From Pseudomonadota bacterium (GTDB taxonomy: Bacteria > Pseudomonadota > Gammaproteobacteria > Burkholderiales > Burkholderiaceae_C), in assembly GCA_020161145.1 (NCBI GenBank), contig JAIUPQ010000001.1:62001-126000 (forward strand): a DNA stretch of 64,000 nt, read 5' to 3'. The notes under the pieces are model-generated. The model made no database searches, had not been told where the DNA came from, and saw only the letters and a list, made by a program, of their open reading frames with translations. Shown here one piece after another: positions 18,200-27,167 of this stretch (the stretch's first letter is position 1; each line of letters starts with the position of its first letter). The position numbers and the translations under genes were made by a program.

Positions 18200-18783
18200 G
18201 CGAAGAAACCGCGAACGGCCGGCCGGCCGGCCGGGCCGCGCCCGCCGTCACCTCGCGCGACCCCATGCGTGCGGCCATGCTGCGGCTGGCGGCCAGCCGC
18301 TCGCAGTTGCAGATCGCCATGACCCCGGTGCCGCACCGCAGCTTTGCCAGCGTCAGCGCGGCGCAGGGCGCGAACGGGCTGGACCCCACCGCCTGGCTGG
18401 CGGCGCTGCGCGAGTACCTGTCGCAGTGGCCCCTGGTGCGCACGGCGCTGGATGCGCTGGGTGGCTACTGGTCGGCGCATCCGCTGCGCGCCAGCAGTGA
18501 GGCCACGCTGGCCGAGGTCGAGCAGGCGGTGGCGCCCGTGGTGCGCCGCCATCCGGTGACGGCCGTGGCGGTGGCTGCTGGCGCTGGTGCGCTGCTGGTG
18601 GCGCTGCGGCCCTGGCGCTGGCTGGCCGGGCCGCTGAAGGCGGCGCCGCGCAAGGCCTCGCGCTGGGCGCTGGCTCAACTGACGCAGCCGGCGGTGCAGA
18701 CGGCGCTGGTGGGCCTGCTGGCCAGCCAGCTGGCGCGCGGCAACCGCTCCGCCACGCGGCGCGGCCCCGGCGCAGGCCCCTGA
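18196..18783 (+). CDS. Hypothetical membrane-associated protein (YqjK-position)
   Basis: A 195-residue protein with one hydrophobic helix (PVTAVAVAAGAGALLVAL) and a second weaker one near VGLLASQLA, flanked by basic residues. The N-terminus is polar and disordered-looking. I do not recognise a domain. It is coupled to the upstream holin-like gene (ATGA at 18196) and occupies the place of yqjK in enterobacterial yqjD-E-K clusters, so it is probably part of the same membrane-linked unit. The gene ends 25 bp before the trpE leader ORF. Confidence 0.65.
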   Translation: MSEETANGRPAGRAAPAVTSRDPMRAAMLRLAASRSQLQIAMTPVPHRSFASVSAAQGANGLDPTAWLAALREYLSQWPLVRTALDALGGYWSAHPLRASSEATLAEVEQAVAPVVRRHPVTAVAVAAGAGALLVALRPWRWLAGPLKAAPRKASRWALAQLTQPAVQTALVGLLASQLARGNRSATRRGPGAGP

Positions 18784-18793
18784 CCCTGTGGGC

Positions 18794-18799
18794 TACACT
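18794..18799 (+). promoter_or_regulatory. Candidate -10 element for trpLE
   Basis: TACACT lies nine bases before the leader-peptide ATG at 18809. Transcription would start about 18805-18807, almost at the ATG, so the leader could be translated as a leaderless or nearly leaderless mRNA. No good -35 is seen. The layout (A-T-rich hexamer, GCCC, CC, ATG) closely parallels the trpG leader at 23374. Confidence 0.45.
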
Positions 18800-18808
18800 G
18801 CCCGCGCC

Positions 18809-18880
18809 ATGTTTACCGCACCCGCGCATCGGTCACAAGGCCAGGGAGCCTGGCCCTGGCGACGCGGCTTCACTGCCTGA
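18809..18880 (+). CDS. trpL: trp leader peptide upstream of trpE
   Basis: A 23-codon ORF with ATG at 18809 and TGA at 18878. It carries two Trp codons spaced as Trp-Pro-Trp (18851-18853 and 18857-18859), far above the background frequency of Trp. It has no Shine-Dalgarno site; with the -10 at 18794 it could be leaderless, as reported for alphaproteobacterial trpL. Ribosome stalling at the Trp codons when charged tRNA-Trp is scarce would change folding of the following hairpins and favour trpE expression. The ORF and codons are seen directly; the mechanism is inferred from known trp attenuators. Confidence 0.75.
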   Translation: MFTAPAHRSQGQGAWPWRRGFTA

Positions 18881-18906
18881 AGCCGTGGCGGCGCGTGGGC
18901 GCCGCC
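18839..18906 (+). promoter_or_regulatory. trpE attenuator hairpins
   Basis: Consecutive inverted repeats follow one another. GGCCAGG/CCTGGCC (18839-18845 with 18849-18855), or alternatively CCAGGG/CCCTGG (18841-18846 with 18854-18859), overlaps the Trp codons. CGGCTTCA/TGAAGCCG (18865-18872 with 18878-18885) overlaps the leader stop. GGCGGCGC/GCGCCGCC (18887-18894 with 18899-18906) could be the terminator-side hairpin. Extended pairing of 18860-18872 with 18878-18890 would compete with the last hairpin. A U-run after the last hairpin is poor, so termination could be factor-dependent or the hairpin could act on translation. Confidence 0.6.
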
Positions 18907-18932
18907 TCCGTCATGTCGTTGCCAGGACTGCC

Positions 18933-20414
18933 GTGATCACCGAAGCCGAATTCCAACGCCTTGCAGCCCAGGGCTGCAACCGCATCCCCCTGATCAGCGA
19001 GACCCTCGCCGATCTCGACACCCCCCTCTCGCTGTACCTCAAGCTCTGCGCCGGCGCGGGCGCCAACAGCTTTTTGCTGGAGTCCGTGGTGGGCGGCGAG
19101 CGCTTTGGGCGCTACTCGTTCATCGGCCTGCCGGCGCGCACGCTGGTGCGGGCCACCGGCACGGTGTGCGAGGTGGTCACCGATGGCGTGGTGGTGGAGC
19201 GCCACGAGGGCAATCCGCTGGACTTCATCGCGGCCTACCAGGAGCGCATCAAGCCCAGCATTCCGGCCGGCCTGCCGCGTTTTTGCGGCGGCCTGGCCGG
19301 CTACTTCGGCTACGAGGCCGTGCGCGCCATCGAGGGGCGGCTGGCGGCCGCGCCCAAGAGCGGTGGCCTGGGCACGCCGGACATCCTGCTGCTGCTGGCC
19401 GAGGAGGTGGCGGTCATCGACAACCTCTCGGGGCGGCTCTACCTCATCGTCTGGGCCGACCCGCGCGAGGCGGGCGCCTATGCGCGCGCCCAGGCCCGCC
19501 TGGCCGAGCTGGGCCAGCGGCTGACGCGGCCGGTGGTGGCGCCCCCGGTGGCGCGGCGCGAGCCGCAGCCGGTGCAGCGCGCCTACGCCAAGGCCGACTA
19601 CCTGGCGGCCGTGGCGCGGGCCAAGGACTACATCGCCGCCGGCGACGTGATGCAGGTGGTCATCGGCCAGCGCCTGGCCAAGCCCTATGCGGCCGAGCCG
19701 CTGGCGCTGTACCGCGCGCTGCGGGCACTGAACCCCAGCCCCTACATGTACTTCTACGATTTGGGCGACTTCCAGGTGGTGGGCGCCAGCCCCGAAATCC
19801 TGGTGCGCGAGGAGCATGCGGGCGACGGCAGCCGCAAGGTCACCATCCGCCCGCTGGCCGGCACCCGGCCGCGCGGCACCACGCCGCAGCAGGACGCGGC
19901 GCTGGAGGCCGAACTCACCGCCGACCCCAAGGAGCGCGCCGAGCACCTGATGCTGATCGACCTGGCGCGCAACGACATCGGCCGCATCGCCCGCGCAGGC
20001 AGCGTGGCGGTGACGCAGGCGTTTGCGGTGGAGCGTTACTCGCACGTCATGCACATCGTCTCCAACGTGGAAGGCGTGTTGCGCCCCGAAGTGGGGCAGC
20101 TTGACGTGTTCAAGGCCACGTTCCCGGCCGGCACCCTGACCGGCGCGCCCAAGGTGCGGGCGATGGAGCTGATCGACGAGCTGGAGCCCGTGCAGCGCGG
20201 CGTCTACGGCGGCGCCTGCGGCTACCTGAGTTTTGCGGGCGACATGGATCTGGCCATCGCGATTCGCACCGGCATCGTCAAGGACGGCATGCTGTACGTG
20301 CAGGCGGCGGCCGGCATCGTGGCCGACTCGGTGCCCGAACTGGAATGGCAGGAGACCGAGGCCAAGGCGCGGGCGCTGCTGCACGCGGCCGATCGGGTGG
20401 AAGAAGGGTTCTGA
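18933..20414 (+). CDS. trpE: Anthranilate synthase component I
   Basis: A 493-residue TrpE that, with the TrpG glutaminase, makes anthranilate from chorismate. The N-terminal part has LLESVVGGERFGRYSFIG, including the tryptophan feedback site region (the LLES motif), and the catalytic half has DVMQVVIGQRL, NPSPYMYFYDLG, the IRPLAGTRPRG loop, LIDLARNDIGRI, HVMHIVSNVEG and FPAGTLTGAPKVRAMELIDELE. The start is GTG at 18933 with AGGA five bases upstream, giving the usual ITEAEFQRLAAQG N-terminus. It is separated from trpGDC by mscS and fic genes and has its own leader peptide at 18809. Confidence 0.96.
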   Translation: MITEAEFQRLAAQGCNRIPLISETLADLDTPLSLYLKLCAGAGANSFLLESVVGGERFGRYSFIGLPARTLVRATGTVCEVVTDGVVVERHEGNPLDFIAAYQERIKPSIPAGLPRFCGGLAGYFGYEAVRAIEGRLAAAPKSGGLGTPDILLLLAEEVAVIDNLSGRLYLIVWADPREAGAYARAQARLAELGQRLTRPVVAPPVARREPQPVQRAYAKADYLAAVARAKDYIAAGDVMQVVIGQRLAKPYAAEPLALYRALRALNPSPYMYFYDLGDFQVVGASPEILVREEHAGDGSRKVTIRPLAGTRPRGTTPQQDAALEAELTADPKERAEHLMLIDLARNDIGRIARAGSVAVTQAFAVERYSHVMHIVSNVEGVLRPEVGQLDVFKATFPAGTLTGAPKVRAMELIDELEPVQRGVYGGACGYLSFAGDMDLAIAIRTGIVKDGMLYVQAAAGIVADSVPELEWQETEAKARALLHAADRVEEGF

Positions 20415-20488
20415 CGCCGGGCCTGTGGCCCCCGGCGCTGCGCCACAATGCAGCGCGCCCCCAACTCCTGCCCGAAGGATGCGTTGCC

Positions 20489-22123
20489 ATGGCGATTCTG
20501 CGCACCTTGACCCTGGCCTGGTTGCTTGCCACCAGCTTGTTGGCCGCCCCGCCAGCGCACGCCATCGATCCGCCAGCCCCGGCCGCCGCGCCGGCTGCGG
20601 TGGCCGATGACCAGGCGGGCGAGTTGCGGCTGTTCAACCGGCCGGTGATGCGGTTTCGGACCCCCTTCTTCGGCGTCTCGGCCCAGACCCGGGCGTTGCG
20701 CACGCAGGCCTTGTTCGACGACATCGTGCAGCAAGGCGGCCCGCTGGCGGTGACCGTGCGGTCCCATGCCGAGGGGCAGTTGGTGCTGCTCGACGGGCGG
20801 CTGCTGTTCGTCGTTGCGCCGGGCGATGTGGATGCGCTGGCCGGCCAGACGCCGCAGGCTGTGGCGCACGAGGCCGCCGCCCGGCTGGAGCGGGTCATTG
20901 CCGACACCCGCGAGTCGCGCGACACACGGGCGCTGCTCCACGCGCTGGCCGCCACGGCCGTGGCCACGCTGGTGTTCGGGCTGCTGCTGTGGGGGCTGGG
21001 CTGGCTGCGGGCGGCGCTGGTGCGGGTGCTGACCCGGCTGGCCGAGCGCAAGGCCGCCAACCTGCGGCTGGGCAGCCTGCAGGTGGTGGAGAGCGAGCAC
21101 CTGGCGCAGCTCATCGGCCGCCTGCTGCTGGGGCTGCGCTGGCTGCTCATCCTGGTGCTGAGCTATGAATGGGTCAGTTTCGTGCTCTCGCGCTTTCCGT
21201 ACACCCGGCCCTGGGGCGAGCAGTTGAACGGCTACCTGCTGCGGCTGGCCAGCAGCCTGTTCACCGCCGTGGTGGACGCCCTGCCTGGGGTGGGTGTGGC
21301 GCTGGTCATCTTCGTGCTGGCGCGGCTCTTCATCGGCCTGTCGGGCCGCTTCTTCAAGCGCCTGTCGAGTGCCCGGGATGCCGTGGGCTGGCTGAACCCG
21401 GACACCATGCCGACCACGCGGCGGCTGTTCAGCATCGGCGTCTGGCTGTTCGCCATCGCCATGGCCTACCCCTACCTGCCCGGCGCGCAGACCGATGCCT
21501 TCAAAGGGCTGTCGGTGCTGATCGGCCTGATGGTGTCGCTGGGGGCATCCAGCGTGGTGGGCCAGGGCGCGGCCGGCCTCATCCTGACCTACTCGCGCAC
21601 GCTGCGCAAAGGCGACTACGTGCGCGTGGGCGACCACGAGGGCACGGTGATCGAGACGGGCATGTTCACCACCCGGCTGCGCACCGGCGTGGGCGAGGAG
21701 TTGACGCTGCCCAACTCGCTGATCACCGGCGGCGTCACCAAGAACTACTCGCGCCGGGGCGCCGGCTACCTGGTGGAGACCACCGTCACCATCGGCTACG
21801 ACACGCCGTGGCGCCAGGTGCAGGCCATGCTGCTGGAGGCGGCCGCGCGCACGCCCGGCATCCTGACCCAGCCGGCGCCCATGGTGTTGCAGACCGAGCT
21901 GTCCGACTTCTACCCGGCCTACCGACTGGTGGCCCAGGCCCAGCCCGCACCGCCCGCCACCCGCGCCGATGTCCTCTCGGCGCTGCACGCCGAGATCCAG
22001 GACGTCTTCAACACCTATGGCGTGGCCATCATGTCGCCCCACTACGTGGGTGACCCGGACCAGGCCAAGATGGTGCCACCCGAGCAATGGCATCTGGCGC
22101 CGGCCAAGGGGCAGGAGGGGTGA
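20489..22123 (+). CDS. MscS-family mechanosensitive channel
   Basis: A 544-residue membrane protein with a cleavable signal (TLAWLLATSLLAAPPAHA) and a periplasmic N-terminal domain, then four or so membrane helices. The MscS pore/beta domain follows: LSVLIGLMVSLGASSVVGQGAAGLILTYSRTLRKGDYVRVG (pore helix TM3 and the start of the beta domain, quoted in two parts in the literature), EGTVIETGMFTTRLRTGVGEELTLPNSLI and TTVTIGYDTPWRQVQAMLLEAA. Such channels open under membrane tension and protect against osmotic downshock. AAGGA lies ten bases before the ATG at 20489. Its position between trpE and trpG has no known functional meaning. Confidence 0.92.
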   Translation: MAILRTLTLAWLLATSLLAAPPAHAIDPPAPAAAPAAVADDQAGELRLFNRPVMRFRTPFFGVSAQTRALRTQALFDDIVQQGGPLAVTVRSHAEGQLVLLDGRLLFVVAPGDVDALAGQTPQAVAHEAAARLERVIADTRESRDTRALLHALAATAVATLVFGLLLWGLGWLRAALVRVLTRLAERKAANLRLGSLQVVESEHLAQLIGRLLLGLRWLLILVLSYEWVSFVLSRFPYTRPWGEQLNGYLLRLASSLFTAVVDALPGVGVALVIFVLARLFIGLSGRFFKRLSSARDAVGWLNPDTMPTTRRLFSIGVWLFAIAMAYPYLPGAQTDAFKGLSVLIGLMVSLGASSVVGQGAAGLILTYSRTLRKGDYVRVGDHEGTVIETGMFTTRLRTGVGEELTLPNSLITGGVTKNYSRRGAGYLVETTVTIGYDTPWRQVQAMLLEAAARTPGILTQPAPMVLQTELSDFYPAYRLVAQAQPAPPATRADVLSALHAEIQDVFNTYGVAIMSPHYVGDPDQAKMVPPEQWHLAPAKGQEG

Positions 22124-22136
22124 GGGCGGCGGGGTG

Positions 22137-22216
22137 TTGAAAGCGGGCTTTCAATCCGCCGATTCAAATTAAAGTAATCTTTAGTATGATGGTGCGCCAT
22201 TCAAGCCGCTTTTCAA
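22137..22216. promoter_or_regulatory. fic promoter framed by inverted repeats
   Basis: An A+T-rich island in GC-rich DNA. TTCAAA (22164-22169) and TATGAT (22186-22191) are 16 bp apart, a good sigma-70 promoter. The spacer holds the palindrome TAAAG-TAAT-CTTTA (22171-22184). The whole is framed by TTGAAAAGCGG (22137-22147) and its exact reverse complement CCGCTTTTCAA (22206-22216); a further half-site GCTTTCAA is at 22148-22155. The arrangement suggests an operator, possibly bound by the HTH-like C-terminus of the Fic protein itself. Confidence 0.6.
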
Positions 22217-22219
22217 ACC

Positions 22220-23365
22220 ATGCGCAGCACCGGCACCATCGTCACGACGACCACCCTGGGCGAGTCGGTGCGCGCTTTTGTGCCGTACGCACTGCCGCCT
22301 TCGCGGCCTGTGCTGGCTGCGGCCTCCTATGAAGCGGGCGTGCGCGCGGCCGAACTGGCGCTGGCGCGCCTGTCGGGTGTCGCCGGGCTGGTGCCGTCGG
22401 TGGAGTGGTTGCTGTACAGCGCCATCCGCAAAGAGGCACTGCTGACCTCGCAGATCGAGGGCACGCAGGCCACGCTGACCGACTTGTTCGACGACGAAGC
22501 TGGCCTGGCCGTGGCCAACACCGACGACGTGGCGGAGGTCACCAACTACCTGCGCGCCTTCCGTTGCGTGCGCGAGCAACTGCGCAGCCCGCGTGGGCTG
22601 CCGATCTCGGTGCGCCTGCTGTGCGAGGCCCATGCGTTGTTGCTGGCGGGGGCGCGTGGCGCCGGTAAGCAGCCCGGCGAGCTGCGCCGCTCGCAGAACT
22701 GGATCGGCGGCACGCGGCCCGGCAACGCGGCCTTCGTGCCGCCGCCGCCCGAGCGGGTGCCGGGGTTGCTGGCCGATCTGGAGCGGTTCATTCACGACCC
22801 CGACCCCCAGTTGCCGGCGCTGGTGCGGGTGGCGCTGGTGCACGCGCAGTTCGAAACCATCCACCCTTTTCTCGACGGCAATGGCCGGATCGGGCGCTTG
22901 TTGATCGCGGCGCTGATGGAGCAGTGGAGCCTGCTGCCCGAGCCGTTGATGTATCTGAGCCGGGCACTGAAGGCGCATCAGCGTGAGTACTACCGCCGGT
23001 TGTCCGCCGTGCGCACCGACGGCGATTGGGAGGGCTGGCTGCGCTTCTTCCTGGAGGCCGTCGAGGCCTCGGCCAGCGAGGCGGAGCGGGGCATCGTGGC
23101 CGTGGCCAGTCTGGTGGCGGCCGACCGTCGGCGGTTGCTGGCGGCACCCCGTGTCGGCGCGATTGCGCTGCGGCTGTTTGAACTGCTGCCGGTGATGCCG
23201 CGCTTCACCATCGAGCAGGTTCGGCAGCGGCTGGACACCACCTTCCCTACGGCCACGGCGGCGGTGAGGTTGCTTGAGGCGCTGGCAGTCGTGGTCGAGC
23301 TGACGGGGCAAAAGAAGAACCGCACCTACAGCTACCAAGCTTATGTGGACCTGCTGGCGCGGTGA
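22220..23365 (+). CDS. Fic-domain AMP/NMP-transferase, class II, with C-terminal winged-helix-like region
   Basis: A 381-residue Fic protein. The catalytic loop HPFLDGNGRIGR (residues 215-226) is intact, so adenylyl (or other nucleotidyl) transfer to protein hydroxyls is expected. An inhibitory-helix motif T-x-x-x-E-G (TSQIEG, residues 76-81) precedes the Fic core, the class II arrangement in which the Glu blocks the active site until released. The C-terminal ~70 residues (RFTIEQVRQRL, TATAAVRLLEALAVVVEL) look like a winged helix, consistent with DNA binding and autoregulation. It lies alone between mscS and trpG with an A+T-rich promoter, so it may have been acquired. The target is unknown. 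Confidence 0.9.
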   Translation: MRSTGTIVTTTTLGESVRAFVPYALPPSRPVLAAASYEAGVRAAELALARLSGVAGLVPSVEWLLYSAIRKEALLTSQIEGTQATLTDLFDDEAGLAVANTDDVAEVTNYLRAFRCVREQLRSPRGLPISVRLLCEAHALLLAGARGAGKQPGELRRSQNWIGGTRPGNAAFVPPPPERVPGLLADLERFIHDPDPQLPALVRVALVHAQFETIHPFLDGNGRIGRLLIAALMEQWSLLPEPLMYLSRALKAHQREYYRRLSAVRTDGDWEGWLRFFLEAVEASASEAERGIVAVASLVAADRRRLLAAPRVGAIALRLFELLPVMPRFTIEQVRQRLDTTFPTATAAVRLLEALAVVVELTGQKKNRTYSYQAYVDLLAR

Positions 23366-23373
23366 AGCCCAGC

Positions 23374-23379
23374 CATAAT
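23374..23379 (+). promoter_or_regulatory. Candidate -10 element for trpLGDC
   Basis: CATAAT lies seven bases before the second trp leader ATG (23387), so transcription would start at or next to that ATG. The -35 region is poor. The context CATAAT-GCCC-ACC-ATG mirrors TACACT-GCCC-GCGCC-ATG before the trpE leader, supporting a shared design. Confidence 0.5.
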
Positions 23380-23386
23380 GCCCACC

Positions 23387-23452
23387 ATGTCTGCGACCCC
23401 CCCGATCACCGCAGCGCGCTTGGGTTGGCGTTGGCGCAAGCCATCGATCTGA
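23387..23452 (+). CDS. trpL: trp leader peptide upstream of trpG
   Basis: A 21-codon ORF (ATG 23387, TGA 23450) with Trp-Arg-Trp encoded at 23426-23428 and 23432-23434. Like the trpE leader it lacks a Shine-Dalgarno site and begins at the expected transcription start, so it may be translated leaderless. The following 135 bp before trpG contain competing inverted repeats and a T-run. The ORF is seen directly. Its role as an attenuator sensor for trpGDC is inferred from the Trp codon pair, the position and the parallel element before trpE. Confidence 0.75.
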   Translation: MSATPPITAARLGWRWRKPSI

Positions 23453-23491
23453 CGGCCTCTTTTTGCGCCCGCCCCTCTGTGGCCCGGGCGC
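23418..23491 (+). promoter_or_regulatory. trpGDC attenuator hairpins
   Basis: A composite hairpin, GGCGT (23427-23431) with ACGGCC (23452-23457, one bulge) enclosing TGGC-GCAA-GCCA (23432-23443), overlaps both Trp codons and is followed at once by TCTTTTT (23458-23464), the form of an intrinsic terminator that a stalled ribosome would melt. Alternatives are GCTTG/CAAGC (23418-23422 with 23437-23441), GGCGCAA/TTGCGCC (23433-23439 with 23463-23469) and GCGCCCG/CGGGCGC (23465-23471 with 23485-23491). Several of these are mutually exclusive. Which forms in vivo cannot be decided by eye. Confidence 0.55.
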
Positions 23492-23587
23492 CCCAAGCTC
23501 CCCCGCCCACCGCGCCAGCGGCTGATGCAGCGGGCGCCCTCTGAATGGCCTGATGTGGCCTCATGGATTCAACCGGAAAGCGCACCC

Positions 23588-24181
23588 ATGCTGCTGATGA
23601 TCGACAACTACGACAGCTTCACCTACAACCTCGTGCAATACGCCAGCGAGCTGGGCGCCGAGGTCAAGGTGGTGCGCAACGACGCCATCACGCTGGATGA
23701 AATTGCGGCGCTGCGGCCCTCGCACCTGATGCTGTCGCCCGGGCCGTGTACGCCCAACGAGGCCGGCGTGTGCGTGCCGGCGCTGCAGCGCTTCATGGGG
23801 CAGTTGCCCATACTGGGCGTGTGCCTCGGCCACCAGAGCATGGGGGCGGCGCTGGGCGGGCGCATCGTGCGGGCGCCGGCGCCCATGCACGGCAAGACCA
23901 GCACGTTGACGCACGACGGGCAAGGCGTGTTTGCCGGCCTGCCCTCGCCGATGACGGTGGTGCGCTACCACTCGCTGGTGATCGAGGAGGCCACGTTGCC
24001 GGCCGAGCTGACGGTGACGGCGCGCAGCGAGGATGGCCTCATCATGGCCGTGCGCCACCGCGCCTATGTGGGTACGGCCACGCCGGTGGAGGGGGTGCAG
24101 TTCCACCCCGAGTCCATCCTGTCTGAGCACGGCCACGCGATGCTGAAGAACTTTTTGGCCATGGGCACCGTGGCGGCATGA
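23588..24181 (+). CDS. trpG: Anthranilate synthase component II (glutamine amidotransferase)
   Basis: A 197-residue class I glutaminase that supplies ammonia to TrpE. The N-terminus [18 protein letters not shown] is the family signature. The nucleophile Cys is in [11 protein letters not shown], and the His-Glu pair is in VQFHPESIL; the oxyanion region is [12 protein letters not shown] start it at the ATG at 23588 with GGAAAG seven bases upstream; an earlier in-frame ATG at 23525 would add 21 residues not found in the family. In many bacteria the same subunit also serves folate synthesis (PabA role), which cannot be excluded. The stop overlaps the next gene (ATGA). Confidence 0.95.
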
Positions 24182-24699
24182 GGCTGCGCCTGGCCGATCA
24201 CGAGGCCGACCGGGCGGCGCTGGCGGCGCTGTGGCTGGAATACCTGGGCTGGGCCAACGACGCGCTGGAGGCCGCCTGCGGCCTGCGCCTGGGCGACGCG
24301 GCCACCACTGTGGCGGCCGACCTGGCCCACCTGGAGGCCTATGCGCCGCCGCTGGGCGCGCTGCTGCTGGCGCAGGACGATGCGGGGGCGCTGGTGGGCT
24401 GCGCCGCCTTGCGCGCCAGCGCACCCGGCGCGGGCGAGTTCAAGCGCTTTTACGTGCGGCCGGCGGCGCGCGGCCAGGGTGTGGGCGCGGCCCTGGTGCA
24501 GGCGCTGCTGGCGCGGGCTCAGCAGGCCGGCTACCGCACGGTGCGGCTGGACAGCGCGCGCTTCATGACCGCCGCGCATGCCATGTACCGCGCTCACGGC
24601 TTCGAGCCCACGGCGCCCTATGCCGAAAGCGAAATTCCCCCCGCCTACCAGCCGCACTGGGTGTTCATGCAGCGGCCATTGACCACGTTCGAGGAGTAA
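24178..24699 (+). CDS. GNAT family N-acetyltransferase
   Basis: A 173-residue GNAT protein. The acetyl-CoA loop is [20 protein letters not shown] (the R-x-x-G-x-G/A motif), followed by [30 protein letters not shown], the beta-6/alpha-4 region. The substrate is unknown. It starts inside the trpG stop (ATGA at 24178) and ends 4 bp before trpD, so it is embedded in and co-translated with trpGDC. This placement is either passive hitchhiking or reflects acetylation of an aromatic or amine metabolite; the sequence does not say which. Confidence 0.85.
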
Positions 24700-24703
24700 T
24701 GCC

Positions 24704-25726
24704 ATGTCCATCACCGACGCCGACGCGCTGACCCGCGTCATCGAGCACCGCGAGATCTTCCACGACGAGATGGTGGGCCTGGTGCGCCGCATCATGACGG
24801 GCGAGATGTCGCCGGTCATCGCGGCGGCGCTGCTGATCGGGCTGCGTGTGAAGAAAGAGACCATAGGCGAGATCAGCGCCGCCGCCGAGGTGATGCGCGA
24901 GCTGTCACTGAAGGTGGCGCTGCCGCCGCTGCCGCATCTGGTGGACGTGGTGGGCACCGGGGGCGATGGCGCACACACGTTCAACATCTCCACCTGTTCG
25001 ATGTTCGTGGCCGCCGCCGCCGGTGCGCAGGTGGCCAAGCATGGCGGGCGCAGCGTCTCCAGCAAGACCGGCAGCGCCGACGTGCTGGAGAGCCTGGGCG
25101 CCAACATCATGCTGACGCCCGAGGCCATTGCGCGCTGCGTGAGCGAGGTGGGCATCGGCTTCATGTTCGCGCCCAACCACCACCCGGCCATGAAGCACAT
25201 CGCGCCTGTGCGGCGCGAGCTGGGCGTGCGCACGCTGTTCAACATCCTGGGCCCGCTGACCAACCCGGCCGGTGCGCCCAACATCTTGATGGGCGTCTTC
25301 CACCCCGACCTGGTGGGCATCCAGGTGCGCGTGCTGCAAAGCCTGGGCGCCCAGCATGCACTGGTGGTCTACGGCAAGGACGGCATGGACGAGATCTCGC
25401 TGGGCGCCGCCACGCTGGTGGGCGAACTCAAGGACGGCCAGGTGCGCGAGTACGAAATCCACCCCGAGGACTTTGGCCTGGCCATGGCCAGCAACCGCAG
25501 CCTGCGCGTGGACGGGCCCGAGGCGTCCAAGGCCATGCTGCTGGGCGTGCTGGCGGGGCAGGCCGGCCCGGCGCTGGACACGGTGTTGCTCAACGCAGGC
25601 GCCACGCTGTATGCGGCCAATGTGGTGCCCGGCATTGCCGAAGGCCTTGCGGCCGCGCGCGCGGCCGTGGCCAGCGGCGCGGCGCGGGCCCGGCTGGATG
25701 CGTTCGTGAAGGCCACCCAGGCATGA
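24704..25726 (+). CDS. trpD: Anthranilate phosphoribosyltransferase
   Basis: A 340-residue TrpD that joins anthranilate to PRPP in the second committed step of tryptophan synthesis. The PRPP-binding [18 protein letters not shown] and [21 protein letters not shown] motifs, [36 protein letters not shown], and the DE metal pair in [11 protein letters not shown] are all intact. It begins four bases after the GNAT stop, with GAGG-like purines (gaggag) in the end of that gene. The stop overlaps trpC as ATGA. Confidence 0.96.
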
Positions 25727-26514
25727 GCAGCGACATCCTGCGCCGCATCGAGGCCGTCAAGCACGAGGAAGTGGCCGCTGCCCGCAGCGCGCGGCCCTAC
25801 ACGGCCGTGCGCGCCCAGGCCGAGGCGCGGCGCGACACGCGGGGCTTTGCCGCGGCGTTGCAGACCAAGGTCGCGGCCGGTGCCAGCGCGGTGATTGCCG
25901 AGATCAAAAAAGCCAGCCCCAGCAAAGGCGTGCTGCGCGAGACCTTCGATCCGCCCGCCATTGCCGCCAGCTACGCCCGCCATGGCGCCGCCTGCCTGAG
26001 CGTGCTCACCGACGAGCGCTTCTTCCAGGGCAGTGCCGCTTACCTTGAGGCGGCCCGCGCGGCCTGTGCGCTGCCGGTGCTGCGCAAGGACTTCATCGTC
26101 GATGCCTACCAGATCGCCGAGGCCCGGGCCATGGGCGCCGATGCCATCCTGCTGATTGCAGCGAGCCTGGATGACGCGCAACTGGCCGACTTCGAGGCCG
26201 AGGCCGTGGCATTGGGGCTGGACGTGCTGGTGGAGGTGCACGACGCGCCGGAGCTTGAGCGCGCGCTGCGCCTGGCCACGCCGCTGATCGGCATCAACAA
26301 CCGCAACCTGCGCACCTTCGAGGTCACGCTGGAGACCACGCTGGCGCTGCGTGCCGACGTGCCGGCCGGGCGGCTGCTGGTGACCGAATCCGGCGTGCTG
26401 GCCCCGGCCGACGTGGCACGGCTGCGCGCAGCCGACGTGCACGCCTTTCTGGTGGGCGAGGCCTTCATGCGCGCCGCCGATCCGGGTGAGGCGCTGCGCG
26501 AGCTGTTCCGGTGA
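25723..26514 (+). CDS. trpC: Indole-3-glycerol phosphate synthase
   Basis: A 263-residue TIM-barrel enzyme converting CdRP to indole-3-glycerol phosphate. Signatures are [21 protein letters not shown] with the catalytic Lys, [28 protein letters not shown] with the second catalytic Lys, [12 protein letters not shown], and [17 protein letters not shown] with VGEAFMRA at the end for phosphate binding. No TrpF domain is fused. It overlaps trpD by 4 bp and its stop overlaps the ung start (GTGA), extending the operon to ung. Confidence 0.96.
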
Positions 26515-27167
26515 ACTGGAATCCCCTGCTGGCGGCGTTTGAGGCCTCGCCCGAAGGGCAGGCGCTGCACGCCTTCCTGGCCCAGCGCCGCGCGGCCGGT
26601 GCCGTCATCTACCCGCCCGAACCGCTGCGCGCGCTGCAGCTGACACCGCCCGAAGCGGTGCGCGTGGTCATCCTGGGGCAGGACCCTTATCACGGCCCTG
26701 GCCAGGCCGAAGGGTTGGCGTTCTCGGTGCCGCCGGGCGTCAGGCCACCGCCCAGCCTGCGCAACCTCTTCAAGGAGCTGGCGCGCGACCTGGGTCAGCC
26801 GGTGCCGGCCAGCGGCAGTCTGACTGCCTGGGCCGCGCGCGGCGTGCTGCTGCTCAATACCGTGCTCACCGTGGAGGACGGCCAGCCCGCCAGCCACGCG
26901 GGGCGCGGCTGGGAGGTGCTGACCGACGCGCTGATAGCCCACTGCGCCGACCTGCCGCAGCCGGTGGTCTTCATGCTGTGGGGCGCGCATGCACAGAAGA
27001 AGGCAGCGCGCATCGGCCCGCACCACCTGCTGCTGACGGCCAACCATCCCTCGCCGCTGTCGGCCACGCGGGGGCCGCAACCCTTCATCGGCTGCGGCCA
27101 CTTCGGCCAGGCGCAGCGCTGGCTGGACGCGCGCGGCGTGGCCTGGCATTGGGGCCTGGAGGCCTGA
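26511..27167 (+). CDS. ung: Uracil-DNA glycosylase (family 1)
   Basis: A 218-residue Ung that removes uracil from DNA. The water-activating loop [22 protein letters not shown] is complete with the catalytic Asp, the uracil-binding [12 protein letters not shown] is present, and the leucine-loop [10 protein letters not shown] closes the set. The start is GTG at 26511, overlapping the trpC stop, so the gene is translationally coupled to trp genes; this implies joint expression with the attenuated trpGDC unit unless an internal promoter exists. It ends just before a palindromic repeat. Confidence 0.95.

Follow-up and report, generated by a model that had tools for sequence, protein, structure and literature searches.

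Layout of the locus and the trpG leader ORF

In the window, i.e., the whole 64,000-nt stretch of DNA analysed here, trpE is separated from trpG by an MscS-type channel gene and a Fic-family gene, and both trpE and trpG are preceded by a short ORF containing Trp codons. The features of the locus, all on the forward strand (+), are as follows.

18794..18799, +, -10-like hexamer TACACT of the trpE leader, read from the sequence; the identical hexamer lies upstream of many relatives' trpE leaders
18809..18880, +, trpE leader peptide MFTAPAHRSQGQGAWPWRRGFTA, of leaderless design; ATG at 18809, 9 nt after TACACT
18933..20414, +, trpE, with a GTG start
20489..22123, +, MscS-type channel gene in the trpE-trpG gap; start picked by eye, frame open from 20345
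22220..23365, +, Fic-family gene; PADLOC SoFic match near full length (E 3.6e-106); ends 8 nt before the -10-like hexamer of the trpG leader
23374..23379, +, -10-like hexamer CATAAT of the trpG leader; in the alignment, the relatives' homology starts at about CCATAAT
23387..23452, +, trpG leader peptide MSATPPITAARLGWRWRKPSI, stop codon included in the span
23426..23434, +, Trp-Arg-Trp codons of the trpG leader (Trp codons 23426-23428 and 23432-23434)
23433..23439, +, segment GGCGCAA, predicted by folding to pair with 23463-23469 when the ribosome is absent
23465..23491, +, post-stop hairpin, arms 23465-23471 and 23485-23491; a hairpin lies here in most relatives
23502..23587, +, remainder of the module, with homology to the right ends of islands and with decayed integrase-arm-like repeats; GGAAAG at 23575-23580 precedes trpG
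23588..24181, +, trpG; its first 18 nt match the direct repeat (core) of the island ends exactly
24178..24699, +, GNAT-family gene within the trpGDC block
24704..25726, +, trpD
25723..26514, +, trpC
26511..27167, +, ung, found after trpC in many relatives

Since the frames from trpG through the GNAT-family gene, trpD and trpC to ung are tightly packed, tryptophan control that reaches the GNAT-family gene and ung is plausible. The gene ung lies closely 3' of trpC in the window and in nine mapped related loci, which defines a conserved trpGDC-ung cluster; the GNAT-family gene gave no tblastn match in the mapped related loci. At the curated Rfam threshold, four tRNAs were the only matches in the window, and the leader was unmatched.

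The original prediction described a 21-codon ORF with Trp-x-Trp codons, built like the trpE leader, and both points hold: the ORF (23387-23452) starts 7 nt after CATAAT without a ribosome site, and both ORFs are hexamer-led and leaderless. When all leaderless ORFs reading W.?W were searched on both strands of the 64 kb (ATG start, 9-40 codons, hexamer matching at least 4 of 6 positions), exactly two were recovered, the trpE leader and the trpG leader; 40 first-order Markov sequences yielded 0.075 on average. At the level of sequence, the trpG leader has what is expected of a Trp attenuator, a small ORF upstream of trp genes in which Trp codons cluster (translation predicted), and what is expected of a leaderless ORF, a -10 box 6-9 nt before an ATG lacking a ribosome site (start predicted). 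Transcription would begin at the leader ATG, and the leader would confer a response to tryptophan. Counting against the explanation that we favour, a conserved -35 box is absent from the leader alignment.

RNA structure and the proposed termination step

The terminator proposed earlier was a composite hairpin that overlaps the Trp codons, with TCTTTTT (23458-23464) immediately after it, which would make the leader a classical attenuator. We rejected this candidate. A scan of 18500-24200 returned no terminator-like site (2.2 expected by chance), and a simple rule found none within 95 nt past the stop codon in any of 22 trpG leaders, a result that also counts against our best explanation. The T5 run is present at 23460-23464, where it adjoins the 5' arm (23465-23471) of the next hairpin; with the Trp codons only about 25 nt away, a ribosome stalled there would presumably cover much of the composite hairpin. 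Folding and comparative alignment had been suggested as checks. The folded leader showed no added stability over shuffled sequences (z 0.00 and +1.05); the alignment upheld the 21-codon leader, which is kept in relatives, but not the T run, which is private to the window genome (0 of 20 other aligned copies). A classical attenuator of this kind is thus very improbable.

By the same rule (95 nt after the stop codon), a terminator-like site was found in 2 of 18 trpE leaders, and one further site, in the trpE leader of L016, was missed by it. Related trpE leaders are likewise mostly without U-tract terminators (18 loci), and this scarcity suggests an unusual termination step. As no intrinsic terminator is visible, termination at the trpG leader may be Rho-dependent or otherwise unusual. 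The lack of an intrinsic terminator after all 22 trpG leaders, and the few after related trpE leaders, would also suit a leader that works without premature termination, through the translation of trpG or the stability of its mRNA, with stalling reshaping the RNA or the coupling and so raising or lowering trpG translation. The distance of about 85 nt between the post-stop hairpin and the trpG ribosome site speaks against such an action, and we regard it as rather unlikely.

The predicted fold of the window leader contains two hairpins that could represent attenuator segments 1:2 and 3:4. The first, which pairs across the stop codon, is dominant in 6 of the 21 copies folded without a ribosome (the window, L005, G002, G222, G215 and G114); the relatives' folds extended 48 nt past the stop codon's first base. 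The post-stop hairpin, GCGCCC/GGGCGC, is located in most copies 10-15 nt past the stop codon, and 84.6% of its cells are paired. Judged by eye, it appears in the minimum-energy folds of 14 of the 21 unoccupied copies, of 18 when a ribosome sits at the first Trp codon and of 20 when it sits at the stop codon; the last two figures mean that stalled and finishing ribosomes leave nearly identical structures. A clear ribosome-driven switch was not seen in the predicted folds of the 21 copies, which counts against the explanation favoured here.

Covariation was examined in two ways. With the plain alignment, RNAalifold recovered only the hairpin over the Trp codons, and none of its pairs had both sides changed. 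When the post-stop hairpin was supplied as a named structure, three of its six pairs showed double changes, in four cells; MAFFT misplaces this hairpin in several rows, and three of the four cells stand in two rows that seem misaligned (G190 and G222), leaving G117, with a change from GC to AU, as the sound case. The covariation score was 0.108 for the hairpin vs 0.136 for a control slid by +3. Covariation in these sequences thus gives weak support for the post-stop hairpin.

Conservation of the leader, its link to trpE-trpG separation and islands at the trpG start

In relatives the leader takes the form MSAIRPITAARSGWRWRKPSA, and it has 21 codons in all 21 aligned copies, a set that includes the window copy and some second copies from one genome. 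Two Trp codons are present in 19 of the 21, and one in G114 and G217; other trpG leaders also have a single Trp codon, so the Trp codons are not strictly kept, contrary to what our explanation would favour. The -10 hexamer lies 6, 7 or 8 nt from the ATG in 15 of 15 copies, although the pattern search had itself required a spacing of 5-9 nt; L005, L006 and L024 came independently through the TrpG search. The pattern search of 399 family genomes gave matches in 51, many unrelated to trpG, among which a near-identical leader ORF recurs. Pattern and DNA searches of the same 399 genomes together place this leader type in 17 genomes of 12 genera, by hand count (G000, G001, G002, G061, G068, G108, G114, G117, G133, G190, G215, G217, G222, G224, G287, G294 and G385). 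Among the named records it occurs in L005, L006 (Rhizobacter sp. OV335) and L024; matches lying within genes (e.g., in L011, L049, L055, L063 and L077) were passed over in the leader listing.

Across 16 copies before an intact trpG, codons 13-22 carry 14 synonymous vs 9 other changes, with third positions the most variable. Over the whole ORF, 63 changes are non-synonymous vs 31 synonymous in the same 16 copies, which counts against the favoured explanation and means that only the C-terminus shows clear coding constraint. Diverged leaderless trpG leaders end in (R/H)WRKPxx with one Trp codon near the end (L213, L184, L185, L195, L183, L187, L289, L314 and L323); in these, WRKP is better kept than the Trp pair.

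The presence of a leader follows the separation of trpG from trpE. Of 80 named loci, 49 have trpE no more than 600 nt away, and none of these has an ATG-start Trp leader before trpG; five of the other 31 do (L002, L005, L006, L024 and L042), some of these 31 having little upstream sequence; GTG- or TTG-start matches in L036, L052 and L065 were judged spurious and dropped. In 60 family trpG loci, scored with a rule of one Trp in the last 12 codons, a leader was found in all seven loci without trpE within 1.2 kb and in none of the 53 others, of which 49 have trpE within 600 nt and four at 641-710 nt; control stretches further upstream gave 0 of 59. These 60 loci are the subset of DNA-search rows that matched the trpG start exactly, and one of the seven (G396) also matched part of the leader query. 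Fisher's exact test, worked by hand, gives 1 in C(60,7), about 3e-9, for genomes that are related and not independent. Within the family, then, a trpG cut off from trpE has its own Trp leader. The seven leaders belong to other types (RWRKP, RWWR and, once, RWRRS), and the left-end search found an island left end in none of the seven genomes, which counts against our best explanation and implies that the separation rule extends beyond the islands found.

The 21-codon ORF is real. That it is a chance ORF without function, an idea invited by its very small size in a GC-rich genome, is practically untenable in the face of its conservation in 12 genera (by hand count), the rule count in the window and the separation rule.

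Identity of the leader region was compared with that of trpG in 36 pairs from nine genomes, G190 having dropped out of the table. The leader region is the more alike in G224-G068 (95% vs 80% for trpG; 73% above the -10), G061-G224 (90% vs 77%; 60% above) and G061-G068 (90% vs 81%; 66% above); the remaining pairs have 57-72% identity above the -10 and a smaller leader excess or none. These identities show that this leader type has been transferred between some genera.

In several relatives the leader module forms the end of an integrated island. On the minus strand of contig C16 of G385, ATGCTGCTGATGATCGAC begins 2 nt past the trpE stop codon and gives way to foreign DNA; L004, whose junction is uninterrupted, has the same sequence as far as the island and then runs into trpG. 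The 18-nt ATGCTGCTGATGATCGAC recurs 20.6 kb further on, directly behind a leader module and before an intact trpG. The 20.6-kb island thus sits in the first codons of trpG, and its far end supplies the -10, the Trp leader and the trpG start. It contains a tyrosine recombinase, a type I restriction system and an ATPase. The layout of G068 is the same: two leader copies lie 18.9 kb apart, with recombinase and type I restriction genes between them, and the second leader precedes the left end. Direct target repeats of ATGCTGCTGATGATCGAC flank both islands, and integrase-arm-like repeats lie inside both ends of each. Upstream of the leader, G294/L006 has a Fic gene, and G068 has Fic remnants before its left leader.

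The relatives' islands carry a recombinase of their own. That of G385 is 69-70% identical to that of G068, which matches PF12834 and PF12835 and has homologues in G224 and G385; it is presumably this recombinase that performs the insertion into trpG. Seven recombinase homologues of 55-60% identity had no arm repeats nearby, and a strict arm-plus-trpG pattern was found in none of 274 genomes of the class. Three ORFs near the G385 recombinase and left end (L198:26-2860) have no Pfam or NCBIfam match, and one of them matches phrog_3482, of unknown function.

A search of the 399 genomes with the G385 left end matched five, the fifth being G340, whose left end adjoins an assembly gap and was excluded from the count. 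Five left ends at trpG starts, in four genera, remain (G385, G068, G224 and G287): G224 has two, one directly behind trpE on the short contig C110, and G287 has one with Dsr1-like genes alongside. A second kind of island, in G117 (L199/L200, G117:C11:94060-120830), encodes a PF00589/Arm-DNA-bind_3 integrase, RadC and McrBC-type genes and is located behind an older leader and trpG start. Its right end bears a GTG-start ORF reading W-G-F-R-R-W; G288 has a similar right end with one Trp codon. A viral origin of the leader was considered and rejected: the Trp-codon stretch had five matches in IMG/VR, but all five have in common a single coding-like segment, which, on visual inspection, is something other than the leader. 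The left island junction had no match in IMG/VR.

Origin of the window copy and comparison with known systems

The window module aligns with the island right ends along its length, with its arm repeats decayed, and scores 132.9 bits against a right-end profile that includes the window copy among its own sequences. Several results count against an island origin: the window and its genome yielded no recombinase of this kind (E up to 1e-30), no left end (E up to 1e-6) and no direct repeat; the window holds no second trpG start behind trpE; and its copy is 70-78% identical to relatives in the leader region and 72-78% in trpG, i.e., without a leader excess. The leader's neighbour is the SoFic-type Fic gene. 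Because the recombinase and left end are gone and the arm repeats have decayed while the leader remains, we read the window leader as, most likely, a domesticated island end.

Fifteen genomes of the window genus have a clear trpG. The leader is present in 3 of them, and in 6 trpE lies no more than 86 nt from trpG; of the others, G006 has retained just the final part of the module, and five show neither feature within the stretch examined. A sixteenth genome, G003, was left out for its weak TrpG match. In G006 (L158, G006:C1:835686-837488), two in-line ORFs lie between trpE and trpG, the first by eye an ATPase, with no Trp leader.

The trpG leader might instead belong to the host: perhaps copied from the trpE leader, it would have become fixed when an ordinary rearrangement separated trpE and trpG and been captured later by islands that target trpG, the window copy being vertically inherited. 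The C-terminus of the Thiomonas trpG leader, AWPWRKPAA, falls between the trpE and trpG leader types; RWRKPxA or RWWR leaders precede separated trpG in genomes without a detected left end; the trpE-trpG gap holds ordinary genes in some leader-bearing genomes (e.g., cobalamin genes in G133); and the lack of excess similarity in the window copy points the same way. The window genus, with its six close trpE-trpG pairs, fits this poorly, as do the leader regions that are more alike than trpG between some genera and the match of the trpG-adjoining part of the window module to island ends. We consider such a host origin possible but improbable.

Our preferred reading, which we hold to be probable, is that 23374-23587 is a compact Trp control module corresponding to the right end of trpG-targeting islands and domesticated in the window. 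Its -10 box, leaderless 21-codon Trp leader, hairpin and trpG ribosome site would give the separated trpGDC(-ung) block its own tryptophan-responsive start. Islands with a tyrosine recombinase and defence cargo would insert within the first six trpG codons, behind trpE, severing trpGDC from the trpE promoter and leader and substituting their own leader and first trpG codons; in the window, the recombinase and left end would have been lost and the arm repeats decayed, with the leader kept. When charged tRNA-Trp is short, ribosomes would stall at Trp-Arg-Trp and trpG expression would rise. The anatomy of the module, its conservation, the island junctions, the passage of this leader type between some genera and the presence of a leader before separated trpG genes can be read from the sequences compared, and the odds of the island reading never rested on the post-stop hairpin. 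The broader proposition, that defence islands target trpG and carry a substitute Trp-sensing leader, which keeps the split operon in step, that such leaders persist as lasting host regulation after the island decays, the window being a fossil, and that the G117-type island uses the same site with an unrelated-looking Trp leader, we believe on balance, with only slight confidence.

If so, an island-borne gene start would include what looks like a metabolite-sensing regulator. This would explain how a core biosynthetic operon can repeatedly be cut in two with its control kept, and how a new attenuator may arise in one step via horizontal transfer; the rule proposed for the family is simple, a trpG separated from trpE carrying its own Trp leader.

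In the open-licence literature, we found no paper that joins a Trp leader with an integrative element or names trpG as an insertion site, and the P. aeruginosa pyocin cluster was the only match for trpG and islands. Several components are already known: trpE and trpGDC attenuated separately, a leaderless trpL, and elements that integrate into a conserved gene at its 5' end. Dual attenuation of trpE and trpGDC was reportedly described by Olekhnovich and Gussin in 2001 for Pseudomonas putida, and we know of no link between it and integrative islands. The likeness lies in split trp genes with trpE and trpGDC attenuated separately; P. putida, however, is a Pseudomonas and not a Burkholderiales relative. 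In P. aeruginosa, passages of PMC7344871 place a pyocin cluster between trpE and trpG, an interesting parallel, and PMC8297930 reports premature 3' ends of trpGDC next to a potential GTG uORF.

The trpL of Sinorhizobium meliloti is leaderless, its mRNA beginning at the ATG of a short Trp-codon ORF; in contrast to the module described here, it stands before trpE(G), is drawn with a terminator hairpin and is not at an island end, as far as the relevant sections of PMC7298713 present it. Burkholderiales trpE leaders of the GAWPWR type are likewise leaderless with Trp codons near the end, but they encode another peptide before another gene and are present whether trpE and trpG are adjacent (L004) or apart (L002). 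Mobile elements that land in gene starts are known, and the SXT/R391 element, once inserted, provides the promoter and first codons of prfC. SXT/R391 elements use a tyrosine recombinase and are inserted in the 5' end of prfC, according to sections of PMC2791158; the islands described here, in contrast, land in a biosynthetic operon, and the start that they substitute has a leader with amino-acid codons.
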